This document shows, one piece after another, positions 4,800-33,679 of a stretch of DNA of 34,544 nt (position 1 is its first letter; each line of letters starts with the position of its first letter). Below the pieces are notes generated by a model that had not been told where the DNA came from, did not search any database, and saw nothing but the letters and a program-made list of their open reading frames with translations. The position numbers and the translations under genes were made by a program. This DNA is from Clostridia bacterium (lineage in GTDB: Bacteria; Bacillota; Clostridia; Oscillospirales; Acutalibacteraceae). The stretch is taken from assembly GCA_017549285.1 (NCBI GenBank), contig JAFYVE010000021.1, positions 1 through 34,544 on the forward strand, in the 5' to 3' direction.

Positions 4800-5477
4800 T
4801 TAGCCGTACATATTGAAATGTTCGTTCATCTTATTAACAGCCTTAAAGAACTTGTGGATAAAAATGAAGGGACCGACAATAATAATACCACCGAGAACAC
4901 CCCAAAGCCAGAAGTCTTTAGCTGAGAAGTGGAAATCAACCTGACGTCTCTTAAGTTCGTCACCGATACGATTGCAGATTTTGTGAATCCATACAACAGC
5001 AGCGATTCCTAATGTAAGAGGTGTGATAAGGAAGATTAACAGATAGTAATTCATTGTCTTCTTGCCGTCATAACGTGAACAAACAAGATTAACGTCATCA
5101 GTAATCTGTCCGTATACAATAAGTGCATAAATACCGAAAGTAATCATTGACAGAAGAAGTGTTTTGATAAAGCTTCTGTTTGTTTTTAACTGTGCAACGG
5201 GCATCGCATTTGGCTGAGGAGCGTTAGCCGCAAAGTTCTGCTGAGGAGCAAAGTTCTGCTGAGGAGCAAAGTTCTGCTGAGGAGCATACTGAGGCTGTGC
5301 AGGACTTGCCTGATTCTGATAATTAAACTGAGGCATCATATCGGGTGTTAAAACAGTGGTTGCGTTGGGATCTGCCGCATTATTTACGGGAGCCTCCGCC
5401 TGAGCGAACTGAGTACCGCAATGATAGCAGAAGCGTGCATTATCTTCCACCTGATTATTACAGTTAGGACATATCAT
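4800..5477 (-). CDS. Zinc-ribbon DUF4234-type membrane protein with TTVL motif
   Basis: 225 residues. The N-terminal zinc ribbon uses C3-x2-C6 and C17-x2-C20. It is followed by a low-complexity linker (residues 25-98) with a TTVL motif at 40-43 and three tandem APQQNF units (65-82), then a DUF4234-like region with three membrane segments (about 103-123, 143-165, 188-210). AAGGAGT lies upstream of the ATG. It is the last gene of the long minus-strand unit, 62 bases after the giant surface protein. The TTVL motif also occurs in two other proteins of the unit, suggesting it is a kinase substrate or FHA ligand. DUF4234 proteins have no established biochemical role. Confidence 0.75.
   Translation of the reverse strand: MICPNCNNQVEDNARFCYHCGTQFAQAEAPVNNAADPNATTVLTPDMMPQFNYQNQASPAQPQYAPQQNFAPQQNFAPQQNFAANAPQPNAMPVAQLKTNRSFIKTLLLSMITFGIYALIVYGQITDDVNLVCSRYDGKKTMNYYLLIFLITPLTLGIAAVVWIHKICNRIGDELKRRQVDFHFSAKDFWLWGVLGGIIIVGPFIFIHKFFKAVNKMNEHFNMYG
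5232..5285 (-). repeat. Three tandem 18-bp repeats in the zinc-ribbon gene linker
   Basis: Three copies of an 18-base unit encode APQQNF three times (residues 65-82). The copies are nearly identical at DNA level, so slippage in copy number is likely between strains. The unit lies in the flexible linker between the zinc ribbon and the membrane domain. Confidence 0.85.
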
Positions 5478-5500
5478 AATTCAAAACTCCTTTTTTATCT

Positions 5501-5531
5501 GAGCGATTGCCGTTTTTTACGGCAACCGCTC
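5501..5531 (-). promoter_or_regulatory. Intergenic stem-loop between giant protein and zinc-ribbon genes
   Basis: A 13-bp stem (5501-5513 with 5519-5531) closes a 5-base loop. One position is a G-U wobble in the minus-strand RNA but an A-C mismatch in the plus-strand RNA, so the structure suits the minus transcript. On the minus strand it is followed by an A-rich stretch rather than U, so it is not a standard terminator there; the T-run lies on the plus side. It may stabilise or process the mRNA, or cause partial attenuation. Confidence 0.6.
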
Positions 5532-5539
5532 ATTTTTTA

Positions 5540-8500
5540 TTACTTCTGTTTCTTTTCGTCTTTTCTTCTCTTATAAACCACAAGGAAAACGATAAGACCT
5601 GCGAGAACAATCACACCTGCAATAGAACCATAGAACAACGGTTTATTGTTGTAGAATTGAATCCAGATGTTGGTTGTAACGAAGAAATCGCTGATATCGC
5701 TTTCGTGAGTATTGCCTGCAGCATCGACTGCAACAACCTTAACTGAATGCGAGGTGTATGTATCATCACCCGGAACTGTGAATGTAAAGTCATCACCGCT
5801 GTCAAGAAGTGTCTGTAAAGCTTCACCTTCCCATTTTGCAAACTCTTTACCGTCAAGGTAAACTGTAAGCTTTGTAAGGTTAAGGTTATCAGCACCGGAG
5901 AACATTACTTCATAGCTTTCAACAGGATATGTTGCACCATTTGCAAGGTTCTTGATATTGAGTGTAGGAGCAGTCTTGTCAACGATGAAGCCGATATCTG
6001 TATTCTTTGTATCAAGGGTATTCTGAGCTTCATTACCTGCAGCGTCCTTTGAATATACAGTTATCTTATAAACACCGTCATCTGCAAAGTTCTCTTTGAA
6101 GATTGTGTATGTATAATCATACCACTTGCCATTACCGCCTGTTACGGTAATCTTATAATCCTTATCTTTCTCAAGTTCGATTATCTTACTATTCTTGTTA
6201 AGAGTAATCTTGATATCTGAAAGTTCAGTTGCATTAACTTCACGGATAACTACATCAGTTGCTTCCTTAACGTGTGAGTTATTAAGCTTCTTTGTAGAAT
6301 CATCAAGTGTGTAAACAGAACCGAAGCGGTTTACAGAGAAGTTGATGGTCTTTGTAACCTGTCTGCCGGCCATATCAGAAATGCTTGCAGTAAGTGTATA
6401 AATATCATCAATCTTTTCTTCTCTTGCAAAGTCAGAGAAATTGAACTGTTTACCGTTGTGTACTTCTGAATAACCGCCTACGGGAGAAACTGCTCCTCTG
6501 TTTGCACCTGTGAGTGTGAGTCTGATGCTGTTGGGATTATAGTTAGTATCTGTGCATGTTACAACAGGCTTGATAACATCGCCATAAGGCATCTTATCAA
6601 CAACATCCTTGAACTCAATAACAGGATCAGTGTTATCTACATAGAATGATTCTGCTGCATAATCAGCAATATTATTACCTGCAAGGTCTCTGAAATCGAT
6701 ATCGAATGAATAGAGAGCATCACCGGGATAATTGATTATTGCTGTGTGCTTATCGCCTTCTGTCTTCCAAGCGCCTACTGAAGGAAGAGTTGTGTTAGCA
6801 CCGTCATCAGTTGCTGTAAGACTGAGAGCGATACGATCCTGAGTGAAGTTGTGTTCATCGATAACAACAGTAGCAGTTCTGCCTGAGCTGAAGTAGTTTG
6901 TATTTGCAGCATTGTTGTTATCATAAGTTACTGTTACAACAGGGATAGTCTTATCAACTGTGAAATCCTTTGCTGCTACTGAAGCACCATAGTTCACAGC
7001 TGCAGTCTTAAGACCGGCTTTATCAGTAAACTGAGCATCAAATGTGTAGTCACCGTCTGCATTGTAAAGGAGTGTTGCTGTATGAACAGTATCATCCTTG
7101 TTAAGCTTACCTTCTGTTGTCTTCCATGCAGAAATAACAGGAATAATTTCATCAGTATTTGTAATTGTTGTGATGAAGTCTTTTGCATCGAAGTTACGTT
7201 CTGTAACCTTGATTGTAGCAGTTCTGTCTGCCTTGAAGTATTTACTGCTGTCTGCATTGTTGTTATTGTATGTAATATCAACCTTGGGAGCAGTAATATC
7301 GACCTTGATTACACAGTAGCTGTTAGCATTTGCCTGTGAATTATCAACATAATTGAGTGAGTTATCAGTTGCGTAAACAACAATCTGAATGTTGTTACTG
7401 TTGTTCTTTGCTGCTTCAACAACGATTTCCTTTGTGATTGACTGAACAAGTTCAGACTGTTTGGGATTTACGATTGTGAAGTTGAAGAGTTCGCCTTCCT
7501 GTGTGGGAACATCCGGTGTAGCTGAATCTCTGTCGAATACAGCATATTTAACATTCTTAAGACCTGAATATGTACCACTTACAAGAGGATCTTTTACTGT
7601 GATTGTGACCTTTACATCATCACTGTAAATGCCGTTTACAGGCTTTTCGGGTACAGCTGAAATTTCAGGTGCAACTGATTCATCAAGAGGATGCTGATCA
7701 TCGATGAGCAATCCGTTTGTGCTGATGTATGTGTAGTTACCTGCGTTATCTGTGATCTTAAGGTAAACTGTAAACTGAGTATTTGCATTTACATCAAAGT
7801 CATTATAGGGTTTCCACATTGTTACCTTATCAAGGTCTGCAAATTTCAATGCATCTGTTTCATCTGTCGCATTTGCAGAAATAGGCATATAATATTCAAC
7901 CTTCATAATGGGCGATGTTTTATCAGCATTTGAAGCAGTAATAGAAATCTGCTTGTTTGACCAGAAACCGAATACAAGATTTTCAACAAGACCGGTCCAT
8001 GTTTCTGTTCTTGAAGAATTATCTGTATTTTTTGAAGTTGCAGTAATGCTTCCTGTAGGAGCAGTATTATCAACTGTGAACTTATAAGGTGTCTTCTGTC
8101 CTGTTACATCAACAGGAATATTTTTGTTATCTGCCTTATCAGCATATTCTATTGCAAATGTGTAATTTGCATTTGCAGCATATGTGATAACAGCTGTATG
8201 AACAGCTTCATCAGGAGTTGCGCCTTCAACTGTTGTCCAATCACTGATTGTGTAAGCACTGTTTACTTCTTTTTTGTCAACATCAACAGCAGTAATTGTG
8301 ATACCGTCTGTTGCGAGAGCTTTATTGAAATGAAGTGTTCTTTCAGTGATTTCAACAGTTGCTGTTCTTGAAGTGTAATAACCTTCAACTGCACCTTCGT
8401 TGAATGTATCTGCATATGTAACCTTTATTGAAGGAGCTACAACGTCGATATCAAGCTTCTGGCTTGTTTCTGTATAGTTACCTGCATTGTCGGTAACACC

Positions 8501-11500
8501 TACGAATACCTTGACATTTGAGCTGTTGTTGAGAGCAGCGTTAACAACGATTGAACCGTTCCATTTTTCTTTGAGCTGTGCCTGAGTGGGAACATTGCCT
8601 TCGTAATTTTCAACTACTTCTTCACCTGTAGCTCTGTCTGTGATAGTGAGTTTACCGTTATTGGTATTCTCGCCTTCTTCACGAGTGTAATCGAATGAAT
8701 AAAGTGTCTGACGCTTTGTTTCTTCACCGTCTGTAACAATCCAGTATTCAATCTTGGCAATACCTGAGTAAGGAGCTGCATCAGTTGCTTCGATTGCAAT
8801 ATTTACATCACGGTTATACATACCGTTTTCATTCGGAGCATCGGGAGAAAGTGTGATACCGGGTTTTTCAAGGTCTACGATATATCCGTCTGAACTGATG
8901 TATCTGTAGTTACCTGCAAGGTCTGAAACCTTGACATAAACAACAAACTGTTCGTTTGCATTGACTGTGAACTTTTCGTAAGGAACAAATGTCTGCTTAT
9001 CAAGGAATTCCTTTGTTTTGACAATAGGATCATTTGTCTTGAAATATTCAACAACAACGGGGCTGATTGTATCGTTTGCTTCGATAACAACATCAGCTTT
9101 TGTATTTGAGTAAAGACCGAAAGTGAGAACCTTGAGAATCTTGCTCCATACTCTGTCATTGATTGTGATTGTTGCTTCTTCAGGAGCTACTGTATCAACA
9201 GTGAACTCATTTGAAGCTACTGTTTCATCTGCATAAACAACATCAGCATTTTCGTTACCTGAATAGCTTACATAAGAAACTGCAAATGTGTAGTTTGCAT
9301 CTTCAGCGAACTTAACAGTAGCAGTATGCTTTGTATCATCAGGATTTGAACCGTTGGGAGCTGACTGCCAGCCATTGATAATTACAGCATCTTCAACATC
9401 ATTATTTTCAGCATCTTTTGCTGTGATTACAATTCTGTTCAATGCATCTTCTGAATTGAAGTGATTATCTCTGTCTGTAATAGTAATTGTTGCTGTTCTT
9501 GAAGCATCAAAATATTTGTCATTCTTGCTTGTGTTGTTATCAAATGAAACATTGATAGTGGGAACTGTAATGTTGATATCAAGATTTACTTTCTTTTCAA
9601 CAACGTTACCTGCGTTATCTGTAACAGTAACAGTTACAGTTACAAAACTACTGTTGTTCTTTGCTGCATCAACGATGATGCTGCCGTTCCATGAGTTGCG
9701 TAAATCTTCTTTTGAAGGAACATAACCATTCTTCTGAACAGTTTTTTCGTTAACATCAGTTATTGTGAGTGTACCGCCGTTGCTGTTATCCCCTGCATCA
9801 CGTACATAATCAAACTTATAAAGTGTTTCAGCCTGAGTAATTTCAGTTTTACCATTGATAAGTGCAGACACTTCATATCTGATTTCTTTGATGCCTGAAT
9901 ATGTATCACTGTTTTCATTTGCAGCAATATCAACCTTAACGCCCTTGACTTTATTGCCGTCCACATCATATGTCTTGACGTCAGCAAGGCCGAATATGTT
10001 GTTTGCATTGGGTTCATCAGCAATTTCAACTGTAAGACCTGTTGTTGTCTGGTCTACAATATAACCATCTGAATTGATAAGAATCTGATGTCCTGCATAG
10101 TCTGTGATTTTTGCATAAATATCAAACTGCTTATCTGATGTGTATTCAAAGCTATCTGTGTAATCTTTGAATTCAAGGCTTGAATAATCATCATTTTCAC
10201 CTGTACCGACAGCATACTGAATTGTAACAGGGCTTGTTATATCAGTTGCTTCAACAGTAACAGTTGCCTTTTTATTGCTGTAAAGACCGAATGTGATTAC
10301 ATCAAGGAACTTGGTCCATTTATTATCGTTGATTGTTACTGAACCTTCAGGATCAACAGTATCAACAGTAAATTCATAAGAGTGCTTAAGAGCCTTGTTT
10401 CCAGCTTCACCGATGTATGCAGCACTGGGATCTTCACTGTCAACAATATCAAATGTATAGTTTGCATCCTTATTGAAGTTGATTGTAGCAACAAAAACAT
10501 TCATATCAGGATTACTGTTCAACAGGTCTTTTGTCCATGTGATTGAATATGAATCAGCAATATCATTACCTTCTGCATCTTTTGCAGTGATTCTGATATT
10601 CTGTGCTGCAATATCCTGACGGAAGTGATGTTCTCTCTCTGTGAAGATAACAGTTGCAGTTCTGGGTGCATTATAATATTTTTCATTCTTGGGTGCATCA
10701 GTATCAAATGAAACCTGAACAGTAGGAGCTGTGATATCAATATCAAGTTCTGCAGTTTCAGTTTTTTCATTACCTGCATTATCAGTAACAGTTACTGTAA
10801 CATATGTCTTACAACTGTTGTTAAATGCAGAATCAACAACGATACAACCTGCCCATTCACGGCAAAGGTCTGCCTTAACAGGAACCTTTCCTTCTTTTTC
10901 TGTTACAGAATCTTTATTTGAATCTGTAATTGAAAGTTTACCGCCGTTTGAACCTGCAACATTATCACGTGCATAAGCAAATTCATAAAGAGTACCGGTC
11001 TGAGTTTCTGTAAGTTTGCCGTTAATAACTGAATTTACAACATAAGTAATTGATTTTATACCTGAATAGGAATCTTCAGCATATTCAGCTTCTTTTGCAG
11101 AAACAGCAACTTTGATACCATTTACTGTTTTGCCGTTTACGGTATATTCCTTAACATCATTGATACCGTAAATACCATTTGTATTAGGAGCATCAGTTGC
11201 GTTAACAAAGAGATCTGTCTGAGTAGCATCAATAACATATCCGTCAGATGAAACGTAGATATAATTGCCTGCGTTATCAGTTACTCTCATATATAATGCG
11301 AACTGCTGTTCACCTGTAATTACAGGAATATCTGAAGTGAAGTTGTCAGCATTCACATCATTGTAAAGTGCATCAAGATCATCCTTACTGAGTGCTGTAT
11401 CTGAACTTGACAAATAGTATTCTTTCTTGACAGGGCTGAAACCGTCATCAGCTGTTGAACTTACTTCGGGAGCAGCCTGATTGTAAAGACCGAAAGTGAG

Positions 11501-14500
11501 AACCTTAAGTAATGTTTCCCATGTGTTTGTGTCGACTGTTACAGAACCTGTGGGATCCTGTTTATCAACTGTGAATTCATAGGGAGATTCAGCATTACCT
11601 GAATTGATTTCAGAAGCTTTAAGTGTATTACCTGCTTTATTTGTGTATTCAATTGACCATGTGTAGTTTCCGTTTGCAACGAAATCAACATTGATACTGT
11701 GAATATCATCGTTATTTGTCCATGTGCCGAAAACAACATCTTCTGCACCAAGTAAGATCTCTTCACCTGCAGCATTTGTTGCCTTTACCTTGATTGCTGC
11801 TGTTGCGGCATCTTCAAGGAAACAGCTTGCACGGTCTTTGATTGTGATTGTTGCTGTTCTGGTATTGTTGTACCAGCCGTAACCGTCTTCAAGAGTTACT
11901 GCAGAACCTGTAACACCGACAATAGCAGTCAGCTCATCAAGATTGATTTCTTTGAGAGTGATGCTATCAGTTGATTCATTGTCTGCATTATCAACAACAG
12001 TAACTTCAAGAACAACATTCTTACCGTTATTCTTGTCTGCATTGATAATTACTTCGCCTGCCCATTCACGCTGAAGATCCTTCTTTGCAGGCTTTGAAGC
12101 GGGTTTGTATTCAAACAGAGTACCTGTCTGAGTCTGATTGGAATCCATCAATACTCTGTAAGTGATCTTCTTAAGACCTGAGTAATAATCAGAATCAGCA
12201 TTTGCGTCTTTTACGTTAACGGCAACCTTGATACCGTTGAAGTCTTTACCGCCTTCTGAATATGTTTTTACATTATCAATACCGTAAATTGCATCTGCGT
12301 TTGCCTTATCAATAACGTCAAAAGCAATTTCACTCTGTGTCATATCATAAATAACACCGTCTGTACCGATATATCTTACGTTACCGGCATTATCAACGAT
12401 ACGTGCATAAACAGCAAACTGTTCATCAGCTGAAACAACAATTCTGTCGGGAGTGAATTTACCTTCAGCAAAAAGTTCAGCGAGTGTACTTTCTGCAAGA
12501 ACTTCATCAGTATTTGACTTATAATATGTAACGCTCTGGAAACCTGAAAGGTTATCTGAGTTTTCTTTAAGACCTACAGCAACTTCCTTATTTGAGTATA
12601 AACCGAAAGTGAGCTTTTCAAGAAGCTGATTCCAGTCAACACCTTCGCCGTCCCATGTAGCTGAATTTGCTGAGATAACACCTGAAGGAGCTGTTTTGTC
12701 CTGTCTGAAACTGAATCTCTGGCTTGTGCAGTCAAGTTCAGCTTTATTCTTATATGTGAATGTCCAGTCAAAAGTACCTTCACCTGCGAAAGTAACAGTT
12801 GCTGTATGCTTATTACCTTCTGACTTCCATTCTGTGATACTGATATTTTCGCTTGAACCTTCAGCAAAAATAAAACCGTTTGTTGCAACTGTTGCATCAA
12901 ATACATCAGCACGGTCTGTAATTGTTATTGTTGCCTTGCGATCAAAATTATACCAGTTTTCAACTGCTTCAGCAGGCTGTTCATCGTTGAAATCAACATC
13001 AATAACAGGAGCTGTTGCACATATCTTAAGAGGAATCTCTTTGATTTCTGACTTATTTCCTGCTCTGTCTGTAGCCTGAATATAAACAACTACATTATCG
13101 CTGTTGTTAGCAACTGCAGAAACAGTGATTGTTTCATCTTTGATTTCATCAACAATTTCTGCATCTTCTTCAAACTTGTAAATTGAAGTTTTGGGAAGAG
13201 TTTCTTCACCGTCACATTCTACCCAGTATTCAAGAACTTCAAGACCTGAATAGTTATCGAAATCCTTTGCTGAAACATTGATATCAACATCTGAATTGTA
13301 GTAACCTGAAGCAAGTGCTTCTGCTGCTTCGGCAGTTACAGTGGGCTTTCTGCCGTCAAAATAAATGCTGATGCCTTTATCACTGATTTCGGCAACATGC
13401 CATGCGTGATCATATCGTACTTCAATCTTTTTGATTTTTTTGTCTTTCTGAATTACAACAGTTCTTGAATCCTTATCACCATCTGTTGTACCGTCAGCAA
13501 AAGTAAGTCTGATACCTTCTTTATCTGTATAGAAAGCGATATCTGTGTCTGAATCGAATATATATTCTGTATTATCATCATTAACACGGAGATTATCTGC
13601 TGAATTCCATACATAATCACCGTTTTTTGCAGTTTCAGTCTTCTTGAATGTTACAACAACATCTTTATCTTCTGTAATCTCATCAATTGAAACAGTAAGA
13701 GCTGTATCACTTGATTCAACATCAACAAGATTGCTGTAGAAATCAACATTATTTACTGTAATTGTATCAACACAGTAGCCTTCATCAGGATTGATTGTGA
13801 TAACTGTGCTGCCACCGTAATTAACGGGTGTATCAGAAACTGAAAGTGTTCCGTTTGCAGGAGCATTTACAGTTACATTATAGATAAGGGGGGCAAATGT
13901 AACAACGACTTTGTAATCCTTATCTGCATTGAGAGTCTTTGTATAAGGATTGCTCTTGTTGTATGTATTGTCTACAAAGTTTTCTTCAGGCATATCTGTA
14001 ACAGAAACCTTAAGAACTCTGTATGTATCACCGGGTGTTGCTGTTACAGTAACTGATGTTCCCTGGGTAACAGTAACTGAACCGCCGAGTGTTTCGGGTA
14101 ATGTGTTTACAGTACCCATAGTTGTATCATATTCTACTACAACTGTATAAATTCTGATAAATTCAACTTCAACATTGATATCCTTATTGACTGTGATTTC
14201 TTTGCTGAATGATGTAGGATCAGAAATTGTCTGAACATCATTGTTGATTTTTACACTTGCAATATAATGCTCTGAATCGGGATTGACATCAAGAACAAGT
14301 TTTGTACCTTCAACAAATTTGTTACCTTCTTTGTTGATTGAAACAGTACCGCCTTCAACTGAAGGAAGATTTACATTATAATAGTCCTTGACATGCAGAT
14401 TTATTGTTTCTGTTGAGCAAAGAACTGTGCCTGCATTTTCACCGTTTGCATATTTCATTGATGCAACAACAGAGAAATCGCCTGCTTCACGGAATTTGAC

Positions 14501-18837: not shown

Positions 18838-18864
18838 ACAGTTCACCTTAAACATTAATTTTTA

Positions 18865-22010: not shown

Positions 22011-22026
22011 ATATTTCAAACCTCCA

Positions 22027-24525: not shown

Positions 24526-25326
24526 TTATTCAGCAACGAAAGGAATGTCATTCTCAAGAGCATATGTTTCTGCTGTTGAACCGGCTGCACCATGTAACAC
24601 AACATTCGGACATTCTGTTATAGCACTAGGATCGAATTCCGCGTTTGGATTAAGAACATACATATCTTTTAAACTATCAGAACTATTTACTGTCTGCAAT
24701 CCTAAATATGCAACGGATGCAGGAATTGTAACTGATATCAATGCTGTGTCTCCAAGACATGATTGACCGATTGACTTTAAACCTTCCGGAAGTTCAATTG
24801 ATGAAAGTTTTTCACAACATGCGAATGAACAGATTCCGAGAGTTTCAACAGTTGAAGGAATATTGATTTCAGTTAATTCGTAACAATTGATAAATGCATC
24901 ATCACCAATTGTTTTTATTCCTTCATTTAATACAACTTTTTTTAATACTAACTGATTTTCAAACGTACGTGCTTCAATTTCAGTAATTGTTGAAGGAAAA
25001 TATACTTCTTCCATCTGAACATTAAAGAATGTTGAATAAGAAATACCTTCAACAGTTTTTCCGTTAAGAGTTTCAGGGATTCTTATAATCTGTGCATCAC
25101 CGACATAATCAGTTATATAATAACCTTTATCAGTATCTTCAGCATAAAAATCTTCATCTTTTGATTCTGTTTTTATTCCGCCTTTATTACCATCAGCAGA
25201 ATCATCAGCATTATTATTTGAGACTGTTGTCTGTACATCATCAGTAGTTTCATCTGATGTATCACCGCATGCACATAAAGAAACTGTCAATAATAATGCA
25301 ACAAATAATGCTATAAATTTTTTCAT
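24526..25326 (-). CDS. LRR_5 (BspA-type) leucine-rich-repeat lipoprotein
   Basis: 266 residues. A lipoprotein signal ends in LCAC-G (lipidated C20), followed by an acidic Asp/Thr/Asn linker (21-60). Residues ~70-250 carry BspA/LRR_5 repeats (IRIPETLNGKTVEGISYS, EINIPSTVETLGICSF, SIELPEGLKSIGQSCL, SVTIPASVAYLG). These domains mediate protein-protein or host-surface binding in other bacteria. AAAGGAGAT precedes the ATG. It lies inside the Tad gene set, between the DUF5702 protein and the second TadE-like protein, so it may be an accessory surface or tip-associated component. That role is inferred from position. Confidence 0.85.
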   Translation of the reverse strand: MKKFIALFVALLLTVSLCACGDTSDETTDDVQTTVSNNNADDSADGNKGGIKTESKDEDFYAEDTDKGYYITDYVGDAQIIRIPETLNGKTVEGISYSTFFNVQMEEVYFPSTITEIEARTFENQLVLKKVVLNEGIKTIGDDAFINCYELTEINIPSTVETLGICSFACCEKLSSIELPEGLKSIGQSCLGDTALISVTIPASVAYLGLQTVNSSDSLKDMYVLNPNAEFDPSAITECPNVVLHGAAGSTAETYALENDIPFVAE

Positions 25327-25345: not shown

Positions 25346-28300
25346 TTAATATCCTCGTGTTGTAGAATAAGTAAATGAATTCCACTTTACTTTTTCAAGG
25401 TTTTTATAACCTTTAGATGATTTTATAGATTTATTATCACTTCCGGTTGATGACATATAATTATCAATAAGCGGAACAGGGAACAACAATGGCTTGACTG
25501 TTATATCAGCTTTTAATGAAAAGTACACTTGTGCTTTTGACATCAGAAAGCTTTTGTCACCATTTATCTGATCTATATTAACTTGCACAACATCGGCAAT
25601 TCGCAGATAAATTGCATCAGCTTTATCTGAACTGAGTAATGACATAAACAATAAAATCTGCAAATAATCACTATATTGAAGGAACAAACCTCCTACTCCA
25701 AGAGCATCATCATTTGTATTTGAATTCATAGAACCATCTTTACTGAATGTTGTAAATAATTGCTCTTTTGATTTTAATAACGGAACACCTAAACCCTTTT
25801 TTATGTATGACAAATCCATTCCGGCTTCCATTGCAGTAAGCCCAAGACATATTGCAAATTTTATAACAGGAACGGGAATAACACCAGATGTTGCAGCAGA
25901 AATTGCTGTCGCTAAACCTCTGACAGCACTGTCATTAAAGAACTTTGAAAATATAGGCCCCATATCAAGCGCAAGACGGATCATATAAATTGTTGCATAA
26001 GCTGCTGATTTGTTTGCTGTATTTGTCTTGCCGTAGAGGATGTATTCAACTTCATTACCGTAAGAATAACAGGTGGATGTATCAATAATATGATTTGTCA
26101 AAGATTTATGGAAATGATCTGTCTGTCCGGGTTTTTTCCACTTTTCAGTATATGCAGATTTAAAATCGGTAGTAGATGTAAGTGAATCATTCGGATGATC
26201 GTTTTTCCACATTTCAAGAAGACCTTCACTGACATATGTATCATAACTGAACATACTCATAATATAGTCGACTGTGTAAAGATTATCTCTGACTGTTGTT
26301 GCAGCACCCGAAAGAGTTTTACCGAGATCACCGAACAAATCACCGATAAATGATGTCAGTTTTGAAAGTTCACTTGTTTTTTCTCTTTTCAGACTTTCTT
26401 TAGCTGCATTTTTTGAAGGAAGATTCTTTGATTTTGAAATTTCATTTTTACTTGTTTCATTTACAACATCATCTTTTTTATCTTCCATATTTTTGTCTTT
26501 GGACGCTTTCAGACTATCATATTGAGATTCCGCATCTTTTTTCTTCATTTTGGATTCATCTGCATTATCAAGTTTATTCTTCATCCATGTATAAACAGCA
26601 GGTGTATTAACATCCAATGCGGGATTATTATTATTTGTGATTTGAAGTGTAATGTTTGCATTTGTAAATGAATAATTGGAATTTATATAATTATTAATTT
26701 CAGCAACCGTAATGCCGACATCTTTGACATTTGCAACTGAACCGAACCCATCAAGATTTTTTATATCTTTTATAGCTTTACCTTTGAATTTATAATCTTT
26801 AAGGGCTTTTTCCATTTCGCCGAGAGCGGATTTTATATTGTTGAGTCTGTTAATCAATGTGTTTACATTCTCAACAGTAAGGTTCTTCATTACATCAGGA
26901 TCTTGCTCTCTCTGAGCAATATCACTTCTTGACTGCGCGGCAAATTCATTTTTTGAAGACACCAATTCAGAATTATTTGCAGCAGTTTTCCAGTTATTAT
27001 AATCAGTTTTATATGTACCGATTAACTCTTTAAGTTTATTAAGAGTTTTTACAGCATCATCAACTTGTTTTTTTCCTTCTGTTATTTTTTTAAGGTAAGC
27101 ATCGATTTCATTGTAAATACCTTCAATCATTGTGTTGGCTTTACTTCTGTCAATATTACCAACTGTACCATCCTGAGGTCTGGGAATGTCAGTATTACCA
27201 TTTGAAATACTGGAATAAAGATTGCTCATTCTATTACTCAGAACTTTATATGAACCCTGAGAATTTGTAAAATTTCCCTTCAGGCTGTTATACTGACTTA
27301 AAAGAGCGGAATAATGGGCATCAATTGTTTTTTTACCGGATGTATTTACATTACTTCTGTCTGCCAAATCAATATCTCGCTTAGTTACCTCTTCCATATT
27401 TTCATATGCGTTCTTAAGCTGAGCCATTTTTTTTGTAAGATTATTTGCAGAAGAAACATAATTCTGATACTGATTATTCTTATTCAGTTCAGCCATAACG
27501 TTCTGATAATATCTTGTTGAATAAGTTCCTTGTTTATACTTAAAAGTTATATTAACAAGATTATCAAGAGATTTTTGTTTATTTACAAAATCCTGAATTG
27601 CTTCTGAAACATCATCTACAAGACCTTTTGTTGTTCCCCATGATGCAGGATTATTTTCATTATATTTAAGAACCGATGCTTCAGTATACGGTTCTGTGAT
27701 TGTTTGTGTAGAAAATTTTGAAAGTTTTGAAGGACCTGCAAGGTCATAAACATATTTTACATATACATTCTTATAATCAGTAGGATATGTCTTTATATTT
27801 TCAAAAAAGTTGGTAACATAAGTTTTTGTAAACTTAAGTTTTTCATATTCTTTAATCTGATCGTATGCTTTTTTTGCAGTTTTCATCAGGCTTTCTTCTG
27901 TTTCATAGAAATCCTGCTGTTCTTCCGCACATTTTGTCTGCTCTTCCATTGTTTCTGTTTCATTTTTAATATTAGTAAGACTATCAAGAAGAGAAGATGC
28001 TGCATTTATAGGACTTCTGTACTTCATAAAATCAACAATTTCAGTTTTTATGAGTGCAGCATTATTCAATGCACCGTTTTTAGTCGGAGTTACATCAAAA
28101 GAACCTTCATTAACAGTAATATTAAGAAAATCTGCAATATTACCACCATTGGTAAACATACCTGATATGGAATTTACGTAATTTTTAATATATGATGAAT
28201 CAACACCCTGTGAAATAAGACAAGCCTCAAAATACTTATCAATCGCAGCGTTTACATCATCTATATCCTGAGCAGATGCGAGCATACCGTAATAATCATT

Positions 28301-28486
28301 CAGTTCACTGTCAAAATCTGTCATGTATGTATTGAGTGTAAGGTCACCTGCAGAAGCAACAAGTGCTTGTGCAAGTTTTACTCTTGCTGTTTCAACAAAC
28401 AGGGTTGCACAGGTAATCATAGGTACTAACACTATAACAAGAAAAACAGCAACAGCACCTCTGTTTTCACAAAGTTTCTTATACAT
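25346..28486 (-). CDS. DUF5702 TadG-like giant pseudopilin
   Basis: 1046 residues. The N-terminus NRGAVAVFLVIVLVPMITC (8-26) is a prepilin-like helix with a G-A cleavage site but no glutamate at +5, as in TadG/DUF5702 proteins that accompany clostridial Tad loci. Residues ~30-740 are strongly helical and charged, with heptad-like stretches (KEQVDDAVKTLNKLKEL-type and the Lys/Asp-rich KDAESQYDSLKASKDKNM) suggesting coiled coils. Residues ~800-1046 are more compact, with hydrophobic segments near 855-900. It starts two bases after the tadE stop codon; its RBS GGAGG lies within the end of tadE. Probably a large minor pilin or pilus-base component. Confidence 0.78.
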   Translation of the reverse strand: MYKKLCENRGAVAVFLVIVLVPMITCATLFVETARVKLAQALVASAGDLTLNTYMTDFDSELNDYYGMLASAQDIDDVNAAIDKYFEACLISQGVDSSYIKNYVNSISGMFTNGGNIADFLNITVNEGSFDVTPTKNGALNNAALIKTEIVDFMKYRSPINAASSLLDSLTNIKNETETMEEQTKCAEEQQDFYETEESLMKTAKKAYDQIKEYEKLKFTKTYVTNFFENIKTYPTDYKNVYVKYVYDLAGPSKLSKFSTQTITEPYTEASVLKYNENNPASWGTTKGLVDDVSEAIQDFVNKQKSLDNLVNITFKYKQGTYSTRYYQNVMAELNKNNQYQNYVSSANNLTKKMAQLKNAYENMEEVTKRDIDLADRSNVNTSGKKTIDAHYSALLSQYNSLKGNFTNSQGSYKVLSNRMSNLYSSISNGNTDIPRPQDGTVGNIDRSKANTMIEGIYNEIDAYLKKITEGKKQVDDAVKTLNKLKELIGTYKTDYNNWKTAANNSELVSSKNEFAAQSRSDIAQREQDPDVMKNLTVENVNTLINRLNNIKSALGEMEKALKDYKFKGKAIKDIKNLDGFGSVANVKDVGITVAEINNYINSNYSFTNANITLQITNNNNPALDVNTPAVYTWMKNKLDNADESKMKKKDAESQYDSLKASKDKNMEDKKDDVVNETSKNEISKSKNLPSKNAAKESLKREKTSELSKLTSFIGDLFGDLGKTLSGAATTVRDNLYTVDYIMSMFSYDTYVSEGLLEMWKNDHPNDSLTSTTDFKSAYTEKWKKPGQTDHFHKSLTNHIIDTSTCYSYGNEVEYILYGKTNTANKSAAYATIYMIRLALDMGPIFSKFFNDSAVRGLATAISAATSGVIPVPVIKFAICLGLTAMEAGMDLSYIKKGLGVPLLKSKEQLFTTFSKDGSMNSNTNDDALGVGGLFLQYSDYLQILLFMSLLSSDKADAIYLRIADVVQVNIDQINGDKSFLMSKAQVYFSLKADITVKPLLFPVPLIDNYMSSTGSDNKSIKSSKGYKNLEKVKWNSFTYSTTRGY

Positions 28487-28488: not shown

Positions 28489-29115
28489 TTATGATTTACC
28501 TCCCGGCAGTTTATTGAAAAATTCACTTACGGTATTCATACCATCCTGAATAGCTTTATTACCTTCAACAAAGTCGACGGCCATATCAACATTACGTATG
28601 AATTCACCAACATCGGTTATAGGAACTTCGGATCTGGAATTAAATTTAAGCAAATCAAGTTTTATTCCGAAAATATTCATCGGAATTTTGATTTTAAACT
28701 CAACATCAACATAAAATGTAGAATAAAACAGTTTTGTATCAGCATCAGCAGTTGTTGAACATGTTACCGTCATATTTGAAAAGAAACCTGTATTTTTGAG
28801 TTCTTTATTAATTTTTGTAGTCACTTTAGCGCCGATGTCCCCCATATAGCCTGTAAATATGTATCTGTAAGGCTTGACATCAACACCTTTTGATGATGTG
28901 GGAAGACTTCCGCCTGATGCAGAATTTAGCAGAGGGTCTGCACACTGGGAAGCACCGATAAGTGAATACTGAGTAACATAACTATCAATTCTTGCTTTAA
29001 GATAATATCCGTTTCCTAAATATATTAAAAGAATAAGAATAAAAAAAACTATAGGAAAAATAAATGTTGCTTCTACGATAGTAACAGCACCGCGTTCATT
29101 TTTATTGGTTTTCAT
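28489..29115 (-). CDS. tadE: TadE-family minor pseudopilin
   Basis: 208 residues from the ATG at 29115, supported by AAAGGAG nine bases upstream. A longer frame reaching 29331 would run antisense-free through the end of the Flp gene and is rejected. N-terminal RGAVTIVEATFIFPIVFF gives a G9-A10 cleavage site and a glutamate at +6, then a helix to about residue 35. The rest (35-208) is an extracytoplasmic domain of mixed beta/alpha character, typical in length for TadE. It follows the major pilin after an 88-base gap containing a stem-loop, suggesting lower expression than Flp. Confidence 0.85.
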   Translation of the reverse strand: MKTNKNERGAVTIVEATFIFPIVFFILILLIYLGNGYYLKARIDSYVTQYSLIGASQCADPLLNSASGGSLPTSSKGVDVKPYRYIFTGYMGDIGAKVTTKINKELKNTGFFSNMTVTCSTTADADTKLFYSTFYVDVEFKIKIPMNIFGIKLDLLKFNSRSEVPITDVGEFIRNVDMAVDFVEGNKAIQDGMNTVSEFFNKLPGGKS

Positions 29116-29147
29116 AGTTTTTTTCTCCTTTCCTGTAATTGCGGGAT

Positions 29148-29179: not shown

Positions 29180-29203
29180 TTCTGATTACTTATAAAACAA
29201 TTT

Positions 29204-29434
29204 TTACAGTCTGTCATTAACAACACCGGTACTGTTACCGCTGATTGTATCAAACAGGCTCTCAATAAGATCACCAAGTGAATCTTTGAATACGATAGCA
29301 AGAAGAACAGCAACACCGATAAGAACAACAACTGCTACGATATCTACAGCACCTTTTTCTTCCTTAAAGAAGTTTTTTACTTTGAAACCTGTAACATAAA
29401 AAATTGTCATAAGCTTTGCATATAATTCTGTCAC
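29204..29434 (-). CDS. flp: Flp-type major prepilin
   Basis: 76 residues from GTG at 29434. The longer frame opens at GTG 29443, but that codon overlaps the GGAGG itself (29443-29447), while the chosen GTG is eight bases from it. A long leader ends in FFKEEKG, with predicted cleavage after G28, then AVDIVAVVVLIGVAVLLAIVF as the pilin helix. Mature length is about 48 residues, right for Flp. The usual Glu at mature +5 is absent; Asp31 (+3) is the only acidic residue near the site. Substrate of the A24 peptidase in the same unit and assembled by TadABC. Confidence 0.85.
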   Translation of the reverse strand: MTELYAKLMTIFYVTGFKVKNFFKEEKGAVDIVAVVVLIGVAVLLAIVFKDSLGDLIESLFDTISGNSTGVVNDRL

Positions 29435-29456
29435 AACTTTCACCTCCTCTTAAAAG

Positions 29457-30335
29457 TTATATTCCTGACCCCATATTTGTGAATATGGGAATAAGAACCA
29501 TAATAAGAATACCGACAAACATCAGCATCATAGGAGCCATAAGCTTTGTGCCTGCTTTTTCGCTCTCAGTTTTTACCTGATGCTGTCTTGTTGACCATAC
29601 TTCTTTGCTCTGATTCTGAAGAGCAATTGTAAGTTCACTGTTACCACGTGTAAGACCCTGAACAATTGTTGATGCAAATTTTTTAATTTCAGGAACCATA
29701 CATCTCTTACCGAAAGCATGATATGCATCAAGTTCTGACATACCGTTATTCATATCATCAACAGTAGTCTGCATTTCTTTATATAATGTAGATTCACCGT
29801 CATATGCAGTCAGTTCCCATGCTTCTTTAAGGATCATACCGGCATTTGTAAGAAGGGCAAGCTTAGAAACTACTTCAGAAAACTCACCCATCATTTCTGC
29901 TGAACGTTTTTCAATCATTTTAGTTGTAATAAGGCCAAAATAATAATATGCAAGACCAGCAAAACCGATAAGAAGGAATAATGCAGCAATTTCCTGTGAA
30001 AGACCATAGAATATAAATGCAAAAACGAATAATGTCATAGCCATTGTTGTTTTCTGAGCGTGAACAACTCTGACATAATATTCAGAATACTTTTCACCGT
30101 AAAGAATTTCTGTTTCCTGACGGAGTTTTCTGTCTGATTTTGATTTATATTCATATTTTAATGTTTCCATCACGGCATAACCTACAAAGTATATTTCCTT
30201 AAGACGGAAATCTTTATCATCAAGAGGTTCAAACATATCGGCATATTTCAGACCTTTAACGTAGAACAGAAGCCATACAGCCAATGAAATAACACCGAGT
30301 GCCATTATTACAATATCAAGAACCGATATAAACAT
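29457..30335 (-). CDS. tadC: TadC inner-membrane platform protein
   Basis: 292 residues with a GspF/T2SF domain (about 145-285; EFSEVVSKLALLTNAGM and the terminal helix MLMFVGILIMVLIPIF) and membrane helices near 5-25, 93-135 and 262-286. Length and position directly after tadB fit TadC. With TadB it forms the membrane platform through which the TadA ATPase drives Flp assembly. The RBS is GGGGAGGG, seven bases before the ATG. It lies 15 bases after tadB and 22 before flp. Confidence 0.9.
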   Translation of the reverse strand: MFISVLDIVIMALGVISLAVWLLFYVKGLKYADMFEPLDDKDFRLKEIYFVGYAVMETLKYEYKSKSDRKLRQETEILYGEKYSEYYVRVVHAQKTTMAMTLFVFAFIFYGLSQEIAALFLLIGFAGLAYYYFGLITTKMIEKRSAEMMGEFSEVVSKLALLTNAGMILKEAWELTAYDGESTLYKEMQTTVDDMNNGMSELDAYHAFGKRCMVPEIKKFASTIVQGLTRGNSELTIALQNQSKEVWSTRQHQVKTESEKAGTKLMAPMMLMFVGILIMVLIPIFTNMGSGI

Positions 30336-30350
30336 TACTGTACCCTCCCC

Positions 30351-31223
30351 TTAAATACTGATATCAAGAATTTTCTTGCCTACGAAATAAGCAATAACGA
30401 ACATAACAATAGCAATTGTTGTTGAAATAATACCGGAACCTGACACGAAATTACTTGCAAATTCTGGTGACATCATTTTTATCATAGCAATAAGAATAAC
30501 AGGCATAACAATCATAATATACTGTTCCATTTTGCTTGATGAAACAAGAGTTTCAAGTTCCTCTCTTATTTCCATCTTATCGCCTAATATTGTTGTTGAG
30601 TTACGGACAACATCCTTGATATTACCGCCTTTACGATAACATGTCTGGAACACACTTGCGAAGCTTTCAATATCTTTGATACCGCTTCTCTTACCGAAAT
30701 CAGCAAGAATATCTTCAATTGCAAGATTATTTTCAAGACCGGCAAGAACAACCTGTAATTCATTGAGAATAAATGTACCTTCAGCATACTGAACCTTAAG
30801 GTCATCATTTACTGCAATAAATGAATCAACAACATTCTTACCTGAACCGATAGCAGTACTGAGTCCGTCAAGCATATCTCTAAACTGAGAATTGAGCTGT
30901 TTTCTGCGGTTATTTATTATCTGTTTTGTTCTGATAGGAAGGAACAATTTAGCAGCAATAACTCCTACAACACAAGGAATAAGCACATTCAATACATATG
31001 TAATGGTTGTCGGCTGACCAAGATCATCTTTACCGATTCCACCATAGAAAAGAAAACCGACTGCAGCACCAATAGCGAAAGCAAGGAGACTGTAAAGCAA
31101 CTTTTCCTTTTTTGACATATAGTAAACTTTATAGTTCAGAACCTGCATATTGATTGCATTTACATAATACTGAGGCTCAGCAACCACTACTTCTTTTGCT
31201 TTTTTCTGTTTTTTTTCTTTCAC
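30351..31223 (-). CDS. tadB: TadB inner-membrane platform protein
   Basis: 290 residues from GTG at 31223, preceded by CAGGTGG; an in-frame TTG at 31253 would overlap the tadA stop and has no RBS. A basic N-terminus (VKEKKQKKAKE) is followed by membrane helices at about 45-62 and 79-98, a T2SF domain (about 115-240; QFRDMLDGLSTAIGSGKNV, CYRKGGNIKDVV), and two C-terminal helices. It is the partner of TadC in the pilus platform. The gap to the ATPase gene is 19 bases. Confidence 0.9.
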   Translation of the reverse strand: MKEKKQKKAKEVVVAEPQYYVNAINMQVLNYKVYYMSKKEKLLYSLLAFAIGAAVGFLFYGGIGKDDLGQPTTITYVLNVLIPCVVGVIAAKLFLPIRTKQIINNRRKQLNSQFRDMLDGLSTAIGSGKNVVDSFIAVNDDLKVQYAEGTFILNELQVVLAGLENNLAIEDILADFGKRSGIKDIESFASVFQTCYRKGGNIKDVVRNSTTILGDKMEIREELETLVSSSKMEQYIMIVMPVILIAMIKMMSPEFASNFVSGSGIISTTIAIVMFVIAYFVGKKILDISI

Positions 31224-31242
31224 AAAAAACACCACCTGAAAC

Positions 31243-32481
31243 TCAAATTTCAATATTGAAACCGGATAATTGTAATTTATGGATATTTACCATCTTATTT
31301 TCAGTTCTTTTCAGTGAACCCGACACCTTGGTTAATGTAGAATTTTCATCTTCTTCAAATTTATATAAAGGATTAAGAATAACTCTGCCCTTTTCATAAC
31401 CTACAACTTCAGAAATTTCCATAGTTTTTCTTGATTTATCTCTGAGTCTGGAAAGATGAATGATAATATCAACAGCTGAAGCAATCTGCTGACGGATAGC
31501 TTCAAGAGGAAGACCTTCCGCACCCTGAAGAACCATTGTTTCAAGACGGGAAAGCATATCTTCAGTTGAGTTCGCATGACCTGTAGACAAAGAACCATCG
31601 TGACCGGTATTCATAGCCTGAAGCATATCAAGAGCCTCGCCGCCACGACACTCACCGACAATAATTCTTTCGGGACGCATACGAAGAGAAGATTTGATAA
31701 GATCTCTGATTGTAATCTGACCAACACCTGAAGCATTTGCATTTCTTGTTTCAAGACTTACAAGGTTGTCGATATTAACTATCTGAAGTTCTGCAGAGTC
31801 TTCTATTGTAATAACACGTTCATCATGAGGAATATAATTTGACAATGCATTCAGGAATGTTGTTTTACCTGAACCTGTACCGCCACAGATGAAAATATTA
31901 TACTTTGCTTTAACAAGCAATTCAAGTTTGTCTGCAATTTCCTGTGTGATTGAACCGTATTTAATCAGACGTTCAATTGTCATAGGTGTTTTTGAAAACT
32001 TTCGGATTGTAACCGTCGGTCCGCAAAGAGCAATCGGAGGAAGAACAACGTTAACTCGGGAACCGTCCGGAAGTCGGGTATCACATATCGGGTTTGCCTG
32101 ATTGACTTCTCGACCTGCAAGACCTACTATACGCTGAATGATATCTTCAAGTCTTCTCTGACTTTCAAAATGTTTATCCAACTGAAAAAGACGACCATTC
32201 TGTTCGATAAATATATTATCAGGGCCGTTTATCATAACTTCAGTAATTGTGTCATCAAAAATTATACTGTCCAAAAGTCCGAATCCTCGGATTGAAGAAT
32301 AAACCTGCTGAATAATAGAAACTTTCTGTTCAATAGGACAATATAATCCTTTTATTTTCTGAGAAACTATATCTTCAACCTGATCCTGTAATTCCTCATC
32401 ACTTAATTTACTCAAAGGCAAATTATCCTGAATATATCGCTTTACCTCAGAAACTATCTGTTGTTCAAGTTCTTCATTCAC
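31243..32481 (-). CDS. tadA: TadA/CpaF secretion ATPase
   Basis: 412 residues. Residues ~60-180 are the N-terminal domain (GFGLLDSII, EVMINGPDNIFIE, RLPDGSRVNVVLPP). The ATPase core has Walker A GGTGSGKT (200-207), Asp box TIEDSAELQ (225-233), Walker B region PERIIVGECRGGEALD (270-285) and His box GHDGSLSTGHAN (293-304). All catalytic elements are intact. It works as a hexamer on the cytoplasmic face, powering Flp pilus extension, and in some systems retraction. The gene follows tadZ by 13 bases; GGTGAAATG-like spacing precedes the start. Confidence 0.95.
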   Translation of the reverse strand: MNEELEQQIVSEVKRYIQDNLPLSKLSDEELQDQVEDIVSQKIKGLYCPIEQKVSIIQQVYSSIRGFGLLDSIIFDDTITEVMINGPDNIFIEQNGRLFQLDKHFESQRRLEDIIQRIVGLAGREVNQANPICDTRLPDGSRVNVVLPPIALCGPTVTIRKFSKTPMTIERLIKYGSITQEIADKLELLVKAKYNIFICGGTGSGKTTFLNALSNYIPHDERVITIEDSAELQIVNIDNLVSLETRNANASGVGQITIRDLIKSSLRMRPERIIVGECRGGEALDMLQAMNTGHDGSLSTGHANSTEDMLSRLETMVLQGAEGLPLEAIRQQIASAVDIIIHLSRLRDKSRKTMEISEVVGYEKGRVILNPLYKFEEDENSTLTKVSGSLKRTENKMVNIHKLQLSGFNIEI

Positions 32482-32494
32482 AACATTTCACCTC

Positions 32495-33556
32495 TTAATC
32501 AAGATTATTAAACATATCAGATGTTGCAAGCTGACCGATAATCTGTTGTACAGTTGCCTGTGCATATACAGGTGCACCACCGATATTTTTCAGTGCATTA
32601 TCAGAAACTGCATGACCTGATTTATTACTGAATTTGTTATACGCAAGACAGAAACGATTCAGGATGGGTGTTTCTGAATTCTGATCCATTGTTTCCAATG
32701 CAGCAAATGCACGCATAACTTTCAAATCTGAAATTTCAGATCCGTCACAAACCATTATAACATTATGTGATTTTGTGTAATAATCAAAATGTTCCTTGTC
32801 CAATGCAAAATCAATATCAAGAATAATGTAGTCATATGAACCTGTCATTTTAAGGTTTGAAATCAACTGCATTTTCTCATCGTGTTTAAGTTCGAGCATA
32901 TCAAGTGCAAATTTTGCAGCAGCAAAGAAATAAACACCACGGTAATCCTGCTTGACATAGCTTTCCAATTTCATAGCAAGATTTGCCTTTTTACTCTTTA
33001 AAGCAAAAATAACATCACTCATATCAAACTGGCCTTCTGCTGAGAAAAACACATCAGATGAACCAAAATTTTCAAGCGGCAGATATAATGTACGTTTTCC
33101 CTTGGATGCAAGATTAATAGCACATGCTGCAGCAAGAGATGATGTACCGGTACCACCACAGGGAGAAGAAAATGTAATTATTTTACATTCATCATCAGTT
33201 AATTTAAGACCTGCAAGACTGCCGGCATTTTCAGAATAAAGGCTGAGAATTTCTTTATATATCAGTTCTGCTTTCTGGAATTTACATATAGCTCTCTGAT
33301 TATTTACCGTATCAACATCGGGACTGTCAACAAAATATGCAAATGAACAACGTGCAGGAAGTTTATCAACATCAATTTCAAACAAATCATTTGCAATAAG
33401 AACATCTATTTTTTCTGATGCAACAGACTCAAATGCCATCTCCATACTGGTAAATGAATAAATCTGAAATTTATCAATATACTTTGTGCTGAAAACAGTA
33501 ACAATCCTGTTCAGGTAATTCTGATCTTTTTCAAGAATAGCAAGTTTTATTTTCAT
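32495..33556 (-). CDS. tadZ: TadZ/CpaE localisation protein with atypical P-loop
   Basis: 353 residues from the ATG at 33556, supported by AGGTGG; an upstream in-frame start (33589) is rejected for lack of RBS. Residues 1-110 resemble a receiver-like domain (MKIKLAILEKDQNY; DVLIAND) and 120-353 a MinD/ParA-type domain. The P-loop region reads SPCGGTGTSS (131-140), lacking the lysine of the KGGxGK[ST] deviant Walker A motif; YDYIILDID is the Walker B strand. From memory, clostridial TadZ proteins share such a divergent loop. CpaE/TadZ places the Tad machine at a cell pole. First gene of the long minus-strand unit. Confidence 0.88.
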   Translation of the reverse strand: MKIKLAILEKDQNYLNRIVTVFSTKYIDKFQIYSFTSMEMAFESVASEKIDVLIANDLFEIDVDKLPARCSFAYFVDSPDVDTVNNQRAICKFQKAELIYKEILSLYSENAGSLAGLKLTDDECKIITFSSPCGGTGTSSLAAACAINLASKGKRTLYLPLENFGSSDVFFSAEGQFDMSDVIFALKSKKANLAMKLESYVKQDYRGVYFFAAAKFALDMLELKHDEKMQLISNLKMTGSYDYIILDIDFALDKEHFDYYTKSHNVIMVCDGSEISDLKVMRAFAALETMDQNSETPILNRFCLAYNKFSNKSGHAVSDNALKNIGGAPVYAQATVQQIIGQLATSDMFNNLD

Positions 33557-33650
33557 AAAAAACAACCACCTAAATTTCAAATTTTTCATTAACTTATTTT
33601 CATCGATACTAACATATTTCGACGAAAAGTTATATTATTATACAAATTAT

Positions 33651-33679
33651 ACTATATCACTTGCTGTTTATAAAGTCAA
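33651..33679 (-). promoter_or_regulatory. Main sigma-A promoter of the Tad/signalling unit
   Basis: On the minus strand TTGACT (33674-33679), 17 bases, TATAGT (33651-33656). Transcription should start near 33644, leaving an 88-base leader before tadZ. This is the only strong promoter I found for the entire 4800-33556 gene array, although weaker internal promoters cannot be excluded by eye. Confidence 0.85.

Follow-up and report, generated by a model that had tools for sequence, protein, structure and literature searches.

A Tad pilus operon joined to a DUF6382-FHA, phosphatase and kinase block in a Clostridia bacterium, with parts resembling those described for type VII secretion

The window, that is, the whole stretch of DNA analyzed, is one whole contig (G000:C16, 34544 bases) from a Clostridia bacterium genome (G000) of 2.3 Mb, in 56 contigs and 88% complete. 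Nineteen genes lie on its minus strand, from tadZ (33589) through a zinc-ribbon gene (4800), and they bring together an operon for a Tad (type IVc) pilus with genes for a DUF6382-FHA protein, a PP2C phosphatase, a membrane Ser/Thr kinase, a protein with a single membrane helix and a giant surface protein, named here J, F, D, K and I, respectively. An earlier note on this DNA, made from the letters alone, had reported this combined unit; the observation was confirmed, and its interpretation was partly supported. Judging from the sequence, we lean slightly towards a pilus operon in which J would connect the pilus machine to a membrane phosphothreonine switch composed of D, F, K and I.

Gene content and conservation of the unit

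The features of the unit are given in gene order, with family matches and their E-values where found.

33646..33679, minus strand: two promoter-like sites at the unit head, from a consensus scan (weak); TTGACT-17-TATAGT with TG at 33679-33651, and a second, overlapping site at 33674-33646
32495..33589, minus strand: tadZ, atypical receiver and ATPase (PF21194, 2.9e-46)
31243..32481, minus strand: tadA, pilus ATPase of the TadA type (PF00437, 1.1e-59)
30351..31253, minus strand: tadB, platform protein (PF00482, 4.9e-5, 23.7 bits, cut-off 25.2; relatives match at the same place)
29457..30335, minus strand: tadC, platform protein (PF00482, 8e-9)
29204..29443, minus strand: flp, prepilin (KGAVDIVAVVVLIG), assigned by sequence and position only, with homologues at the same place
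28489..29115, minus strand: tadE-like minor pilin, start at 29115 with a ribosome-binding site (PF07811, 8.5e-4, 19.8 bits, cut-off 22.9)
25346..28486, minus strand: DUF5702 protein with a pilin-like N-terminal segment (PF18960, 1.2e-25)
24526..25326, minus strand: BspA-type leucine-rich repeat protein, lipoprotein-like (PF13306, 1.3e-27)
23218..24489, minus strand: second TadE/F-like minor pilin (open reading frame ORF423), with a pilin-like N-terminal segment and conserved position; no Pfam family
22745..23239, minus strand: ORF164, no family
22027..22740, minus strand: prepilin peptidase, A24 domain (PF01478, 6.9e-9)
20718..22019, minus strand: WG-repeat protein with an N-terminal membrane segment (PF14903, 5.7e-26)
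18930..20702, minus strand: J, with DUF6382, a proline-rich linker (two LLxHYSKEN segments), two TTVL motifs and FHA
19255..19268, minus strand: ETTVL codons of J, directly before the FHA domain
18070..18855, minus strand: F, PP2C/PPM phosphatase (PF13672, 9.4e-10), metal-site motifs intact
16357..18051, minus strand: D, Ser/Thr kinase with one membrane helix and a helical, TPR-like outer domain (PF00069, 1.4e-48; motifs; outer-domain profile against solved structures)
15740..16357, minus strand: K (ORF205), single membrane helix and a tail, presumably cytoplasmic, with four ETTVL motifs
15828..15991, minus strand: codons of the four ETTVL motifs of K
15222..15722, minus strand: small membrane protein with four hydrophobic segments by eye, found between K and I in many loci
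5540..15229, minus strand: I, 3229 residues, with a Sec-type signal, immunoglobulin (Ig)-like/InlB-type repeats, a C-terminal membrane anchor with NNKPLFYGSIAG and a short basic tail
4800..5477, minus strand: zinc-ribbon/DUF4234 membrane protein with an NATTVLTPD motif (PF14018, PF13240)
4676..4712, minus strand: hairpin past the last gene, 14 pairs, -22 kcal/mol, absent from the list of the terminator scan

Pfam searches, sequence and position bore out the named genes on the one strand. The earlier count had been 18 genes with a largest gap of about 92 bases; the compact one-strand run stands, with 19 genes and gaps of -22 to 88 bases, given that tadE starts at the ATG preceded by a ribosome-binding site at 29115 (the alternative start, 29331, would overlap flp). 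Regarding the claimed full Tad machine, the gene set is there, with tadB and tadE just below their Pfam cut-offs and flp recognized by sequence and position, and FHA, PP2C and kinase are all there with their motifs intact. The single strong promoter that had been placed at the head is present as a site, but it constitutes weak evidence, as promoter-like matches in the stretch exceed those in shuffles by a modest margin only (88 vs 67.1). Moreover, since the window is an entire contig of a fragmented genome, the upstream side of the unit is cut. None of the minus-strand terminator-like sites from the scan falls inside any intergenic gap of the unit. The ORF164 profile, run against the searched loci, matched ORF164 itself and no relative.

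Conservation was evaluated in two unbiased samples, an order sample of 245 genomes and a phylum sample of 398. In the order sample, DUF6382 was found in 22 genomes and DUF5702, a marker of this Tad variant, in 14; DUF6382 was present in 13 of the 14 DUF5702 genomes vs 9 of the 231 others (Fisher p 5e-15), with both on one contig in 11 of the 13, on separate contigs in G081 and G238, and DUF5702 only in G118. At least two Tad genes adjoin J in 11 of 19 cases for the order and in 18 of 21 for the phylum. These neighbour counts omit J matches with E of 1e-12 or worse or shorter than 200 aa, namely the Tad-adjacent L037 and L038 and, from the phylum sample, L159, L166, L167, L169, L173, L175 and L177-L180. 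The extended-flank set covers the 22 DUF6382 genomes of the order sample except G238 and G050. In the phylum sample there are 35 such genomes: 29 were fetched, G000, G023 and G031 were left out of the 21, and G428, G271 and G419 are not included; L181, which repeats L042, was excluded by hand. Based on these counts, J is often the last gene of DUF5702-type Tad operons across the phylum. The kinase set is rarer there than J. Accordingly, the question raised earlier, whether Tad and kinase blocks lie apart in most relatives, is answered no for the FHA gene, and the kinase half is often away from Tad (12/18).

The complete combination of Tad and J-F-D-K was observed in at least 4 of the 245 order genomes (G000, G062, G181 and G127, from three families), a lower bound because contig ends cut several other loci. 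In addition, named genomes were scanned with a profile of seven Tad-linked J proteins, which gave 155 relatives, and the best 80 of the 155 loci were kept, from taxa including Lachnospiraceae, Ruminococcus and Clostridium. At least three Tad genes occur in 62 of these, J-F-D-K in order in 55 (a count that skips over unassigned frames in between) and both in 42, none of which has EssC in the locus; median gaps in the conserved loci are 24 bases for J-F, 14 for F-D and 0 for D-K. Among the 13 J-F-D-K loci without three Tad genes, 8 are cut by contig ends near J, and L097, L099, L121, L122 and L123 are uncut. Altogether, the gene-order check proposed in the earlier note came out in favour of its unit, and the results support the view that Tad and the phospho block are conserved together as a unit.

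It is possible, if on the unlikely side, that two independent systems share one transcript, with J alone truly belonging to Tad and F-D-K-I forming a system of its own, for sensing the envelope or spanning the wall, that travels with Tad. Such independence would agree with loci in which J-F-D-K has no other Tad genes or EssC nearby (L097, L099) or stands with EssC (L121, L040), and with the commonness of Tad and J without F or D. Nevertheless, the co-occurrence in 42 of the best 80 of 155 loci, with short gaps, argues against it, as does the place of J between the two blocks, where it carries the TxxL motif of K.

Regarding the surroundings, an orphan prepilin-peptidase N-terminal domain, A24_N (PF06750, 1.2e-13), lies just upstream of the unit (33728-34198, minus strand), and the operon's own A24 gene matches the catalytic-domain family only; an A24_N-like gene likewise adjoins a tadZ in L071 and L114, and the prepilin peptidase may be divided between two genes. 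Near the contig end (about 34336-34400, minus strand), a tRNA-like 3' part ending in CCA, not called by ARAGORN, may represent a tRNA gene that is altered or cut; the window gave no match in Rfam or tRNA searches. On the other side, an alpha-galactosidase-like gene (Melibiase_2; 3104-4471, plus strand) is convergent with the end of the unit.

The phosphorylation proteins and their shared motif

The kinase D has intact AVK, YRDMKPAN, DFG and APE motifs, and the phosphatase F intact NQD, DGMGG, GDTR, SDGF and DNI motifs. The profile of the D outer domain matches TPR repeats and, weakly, the TorS sensor. An assignment of D and F as the housekeeping PrkC-PrpC pair was rejected on the PASTA-kinase model (201.4 bits, cut-off 450) and the genome context; elsewhere in the genome, a 765-aa frame gives a stronger Pkinase match. 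A viral-contig scan with the kinase alone as query, which covers close relatives only, confirmed no hit.

In J, the FHA domain retains SRSH and N. DUF6382 is predicted, from a confident model, to have a kinase-like fold, and it has no recognisable catalytic Lys or Asp; its helix-loop region reads YMID...ADV in A3, a correspondence drawn by eye. EssB, the pseudokinase of the T7SSb type VII secretion system (T7SS), is not among the 50 fold matches listed, which says nothing for or against kinship.

K tails and J linkers both hold E-T-T-V-L-S-like repeats, and the candidate substrates of the earlier note are thus present, with a common Thr motif. Leu at +3 from Thr was counted 262 times in 57 non-redundant K tails vs 56 in shuffles (z 29.7), and 164 times in 92 J linkers, taken before FHA, vs 52 (z 15.3), with z values inflated by repeats within proteins and relatedness between them. 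FHA domains have a known +3 preference, which fits this T-to-L +3 rule. The signal at +2 is also raised (z 14.8 in K tails, 13.7 in J linkers) because the motif has a double T, and Ser to Leu gives no peak at +3. Within the window, ETTVL codons occur 5 times vs 0.06 expected, and all five occurrences fall in J and K. Past the end of I, three relatives were inspected: one, L185, encodes a zinc-ribbon protein like that of the window, carrying NATEVLTAES, and the other two have none.

Two copies of a segment, L-[LM]-x-H-Y-[SN]-K-E-N, are found in the J linker of the window. It occurs in 54 of 88 Tad-linked J, including 40 of the 47 accompanied by D and K, in 3 of 11 J of unassigned context, and in 0 of 9 T7SS-linked J (p 4e-4, ignoring relatedness); L121-L123 were labelled T7SS by hand, and the L122 locus shows neither EssC nor a checked WXG100 protein. 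In loci with both Tad and EssC, the segment is present in 4 of 5 Tad-adjacent J and in 0 of 3 second J. The count left out L074, L102, L181 and J shorter than 300 aa. We infer that this segment is a candidate docking site for a Tad part.

Relation to type VII secretion and the giant protein

The earlier note knew of no described system joining Tad and a kinase-phosphatase pair with a giant adhesin. For the phospho block and the giant protein, a matching set is among the parts given to T7SSe and T7SSj. As described in the available portion of Garrett et al. (2024, PMC11217815), TsxJ consists of DUF6382 and FHA, TsxF is a PPM phosphatase, TsxD a membrane kinase and TsxK a protein of one membrane helix and a short unstructured cytoplasmic stretch, while TsxI is large (TsdI, 1654 residues), with a Sec signal, Ig-like domains and a C-terminal membrane helix. 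By sequence comparison, J, F, D, K and I of the window fit these parts point by point, and their order is that of the Neobacillus locus L121, in which EssC and two WXG100 proteins stand with a J-F-D-K-I set matching the same profiles. The window differs in that its set is attached to a Tad operon, with no EssC or WXG100 found in the genome, and in that its J has the LLxHYSKEN linker segments and no zinc ribbon. A zinc-ribbon-like stretch lies between DUF6382 and FHA of J in L121, L123, L041 and L042, three of them T7SS-linked; the zinc ribbon of the window, which has a TTVL motif, is encoded by its own gene, the last of the operon. T7SSf clusters are given no Tad components besides a TadZ-like part in the same portion of that article (PMC11217815).

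EssC and WXG100 were surveyed in 29 chosen genomes, 22 with Tad and no EssC at the J locus and 7 for comparison. Neither full-length EssC nor WXG100 was found in 20 of the 22 (G000 and 19 others), with G246 and G253 giving only FtsK-like partial matches to the EssC profile (74-79 bits), whereas G133 and G248 have both. In the comparison set, both were found in 6 of 7 (G199, G156, G122, G250, G251 and, with Tad and EssC sharing a locus, G257) and neither in G219. Of the genomes with complete Tad and J-F-D-K, 11 of 12 have neither, the exception being Oribacterium (G248, L075). In G000, no match was obtained to the EssC/TsxC ATPase (3-row EssC profile, E <= 1e-20) or to WXG100 (PF06013, E <= 0.001), which at 88% completeness is not proof of absence, so that the cross-genome pattern carries the point.

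Other arrangements were also seen. In L080, L081, L111, L117 and L120, the Tad operon runs directly into J and an EssC gene, a second kind of Tad-T7SS neighbourhood, and 3 of these 5 loci have a second J and a tadZ as well. A third context for the set is that of L097 and L099, the former also with the small membrane protein and a giant.

A remnant of a decayed T7SSe, in which an ancestral T7SS beside Tad would have lost EssC and WXG100 and left J-F-D-K-I with a new function or none, is a further explanation, and one that we find quite improbable. The five proteins are indeed named T7SSe/T7SSj parts (PMC11217815, available portion), and Tad directly adjoins the EssC gene in the five loci just mentioned; however, the set keeps all its parts and their order in many loci that have no EssC, and the phylogeny of J is at least equally compatible with transfer from Tad to T7SS. 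In that J tree (111 rows, FastTree, unrooted), a clade placed among Tad-linked lineages (88, inner 97) unites 6 of 8 T7SS-labelled J with two of unassigned context, and L174 and the second J of L040 lie elsewhere. Transfer from Tad to T7SS would be one possible reading of this. In the kinase tree (80 rows, a quick method, several long branches), D of L040, L121-L123 and L042 group together (support 92, inner node 99), adjacent to a clade of 53 rows (97) to which the window belongs and in which 45 rows are Tad-linked and 8 unassigned; the T7SS-labelled kinases of L036, L043 and L174 lie elsewhere. As several Tad loci hold clearly different kinases, it seems that kinases were recruited to this position on more than one occasion.

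Regarding the giant protein, 58 of 66 K genes have a protein of at least 350 residues next in line, directly after K or after the small membrane protein, and 56 of these 58 proteins have a signal-peptide-like start. Among the 19 that lie wholly within their locus, 12 have a C-terminal helix by a strict hydropathy cut and 8 match a strict regular expression for the anchor of I; the T7SS-linked L121 and L123 are unmatched and similar by eye. Size varies between loci and the anchor region is similar, as seen in the C-terminal ends of the window (FVTTNIWIQFYNNKPLFYGSIAG) and Neobacillus (LVSTNPIVRWYNNKTLFMGSIGG). The earlier label of giant adhesin was given up: Pfam finds only Ig-like and InlB-type repeats and weak matches, with no other adhesin domain, and position and C-terminus resemble TsxI, to which the protein corresponds. 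A TTVL motif in the tail of the G219 giant was dropped, as its residues lie in the membrane helix. In L074 and L102, the protein at the I position ends with FGETTVLS/FGETTLLA-like and DET-L motifs, and it may itself be a target or a different kind of protein.

One could regard I as the regulated output, that is, a surface adhesin or receptor displayed under D/K control, with the pilus as an accessory. The regular presence of a large protein after K or the small membrane protein (58/66), its signal-like start (56/58) and its variable size with a similar anchor region would agree with this view, but the Pfam results, limited to Ig-like and InlB-type repeats and weak matches, do not, and TsdI was proposed as an envelope-spanning conduit or a target-recognition part (PMC11217815, available portion); overall, we consider it unlikely.

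Proposed switch and comparison with known systems

In the switch that we favour, D would respond to a signal from the envelope or surface, sensed by its helical outer domain and perhaps with the help of the envelope-spanning I, and would phosphorylate threonines of the T-x-x-L motifs, both the four in the K tail and those in the J linker. J would bind pT-x-x-L (phosphothreonine) through its FHA domain, either on K, bringing J to the membrane, or on its own linker, leaving J closed in the manner of GarA. Contact with the Tad motor (TadA/TadZ/TadB/TadC) would be made by the kinase-like domain of J together with its LLxHYSKEN segment; pilus assembly, or the display of I, would be switched by phosphorylation, and F would reset it. 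I would span the wall, and may guide or present a structure. As the earlier note proposed, pilus assembly could thus be under phosphothreonine control.

Since the matching set belongs to T7SSe, J-F-D-K-I would be a portable control cassette. To a broader proposal we give an even chance: that the set is a machine-independent phosphothreonine cassette rather than T7SS core, in which the pseudokinase-FHA adaptor J reads pT-x-x-L on the membrane scaffold K and carries a machine-specific docking segment, one set switching either a Tad pilus or an EssC machine, and that J has been overlooked as a general component of Tad pili in Bacillota.

Several observations weigh against the favoured switch. The FHA domain of J has GK at the position where GarA-type FHA domains have GR, and the profiles of DUF6382 and kinase D show no similarity (hhalign probability 0.2%). 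Across the whole genome, the ETTVL-coding pattern occurs 12 times vs 8 for a reversed control, so that its excess is local only; the other seven matches lie in frames of 49 to 158 residues without gene signs or in two long frames, presumably SpoIVA and glycerol kinase. The idea that the J motif tracks kinase presence was not borne out in the two unbiased samples (9/17 without D vs 15/24 with D, p 0.75), although in all Tad-linked J, a biased set, it was found in 61/65 with kinase vs 20/33 without. The linker segment is missing from 34 of 88 Tad-linked J (relatedness uncorrected), and the T7SS label shows no clustering over the whole kinase tree (6 changes vs a shuffled mean of 5.9). Neither kinase nor phosphatase lies beside 12 of 18 Tad-linked J in the phylum sample, and L097 and L099 show tadZ-J-F-D-K with no other Tad genes and no EssC in the stretch examined. 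Finally, the seven-protein query was built from Tad-linked J and so favours Tad-linked loci, and the completeness of the window genome limits its own T7SS absence.

If the proposals are true, proteins filed as T7SS core are a shared control cassette, and the Tad pili of many Clostridia are under direct phosphothreonine control. What is new here is a block described for T7SS in what appears, from sequence, to be a new place, on a Tad operon, together with the ETTVL enrichment, the predicted kinase-like fold of DUF6382, a domain of unknown function, and the Tad-associated J linker segment; an exact peptide (ETTVL) and a partner pair (K and J) are named. Among the papers listed from the open-licence literature, one names DUF6382 and none joins the J-F-D-K-I set with Tad pili. 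The results bear on a question that Garrett et al. leave open in the available portion of their article, namely whether Tad genes near some T7SS loci are functionally linked or coincidental (PMC11217815).

Compared with other known systems, the window shares with Tad/Flp (type IVc) pili tadZ, tadA, tadB, tadC, a probable flp, tadE-like pilins and prepilin peptidase, a monoderm-type set, and differs from them by the DUF5702, WG-repeat and DUF6382-FHA genes, the kinase-phosphatase set and the terminal giant Ig-like protein. In PrkC-PrpC and Stk1-Stp1, a PP2C phosphatase and a transmembrane kinase likewise stand side by side, but D is below the PASTA-kinase cut-off and its outer domain is TPR-like. 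The archaellum is a relative of type IV filaments, and the FHA domain of J aligns to ArnA (5a8i, E 0.0025). In ArnA/ArnB/ArnC, which may serve as the filament analogue, an FHA protein with a zinc finger and a kinase regulate the archaellum; that system is archaeal, and no giant surface protein is described in the available portion of the source (PMC12852372).

As for GarA/OdhI, the GETTVL before the FHA domain of J recalls their ETT in a disordered stretch outside FHA, a Ser/Thr kinase target, with the ETTS motif of GarA phosphorylated in cells (PMC5448819, available portion). These are metabolic regulators, whereas the window J is long, with DUF6382, and scored 19.8 bits against the curated OdhI model (cut-off 200); against the model of TagH (TIGR03354), an FHA protein of type VI secretion, it scored 24.5 bits (cut-off 120.25), and J is not a TagH protein. 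The nearest proven analogue is the type VI secretion system of Agrobacterium, an unrelated machine, which likewise ties a kinase and an FHA protein to export: as reported in the available portion of the source, PpkA marks TssL, Fha binds the phosphothreonine and secretion is activated (PMC3953482).

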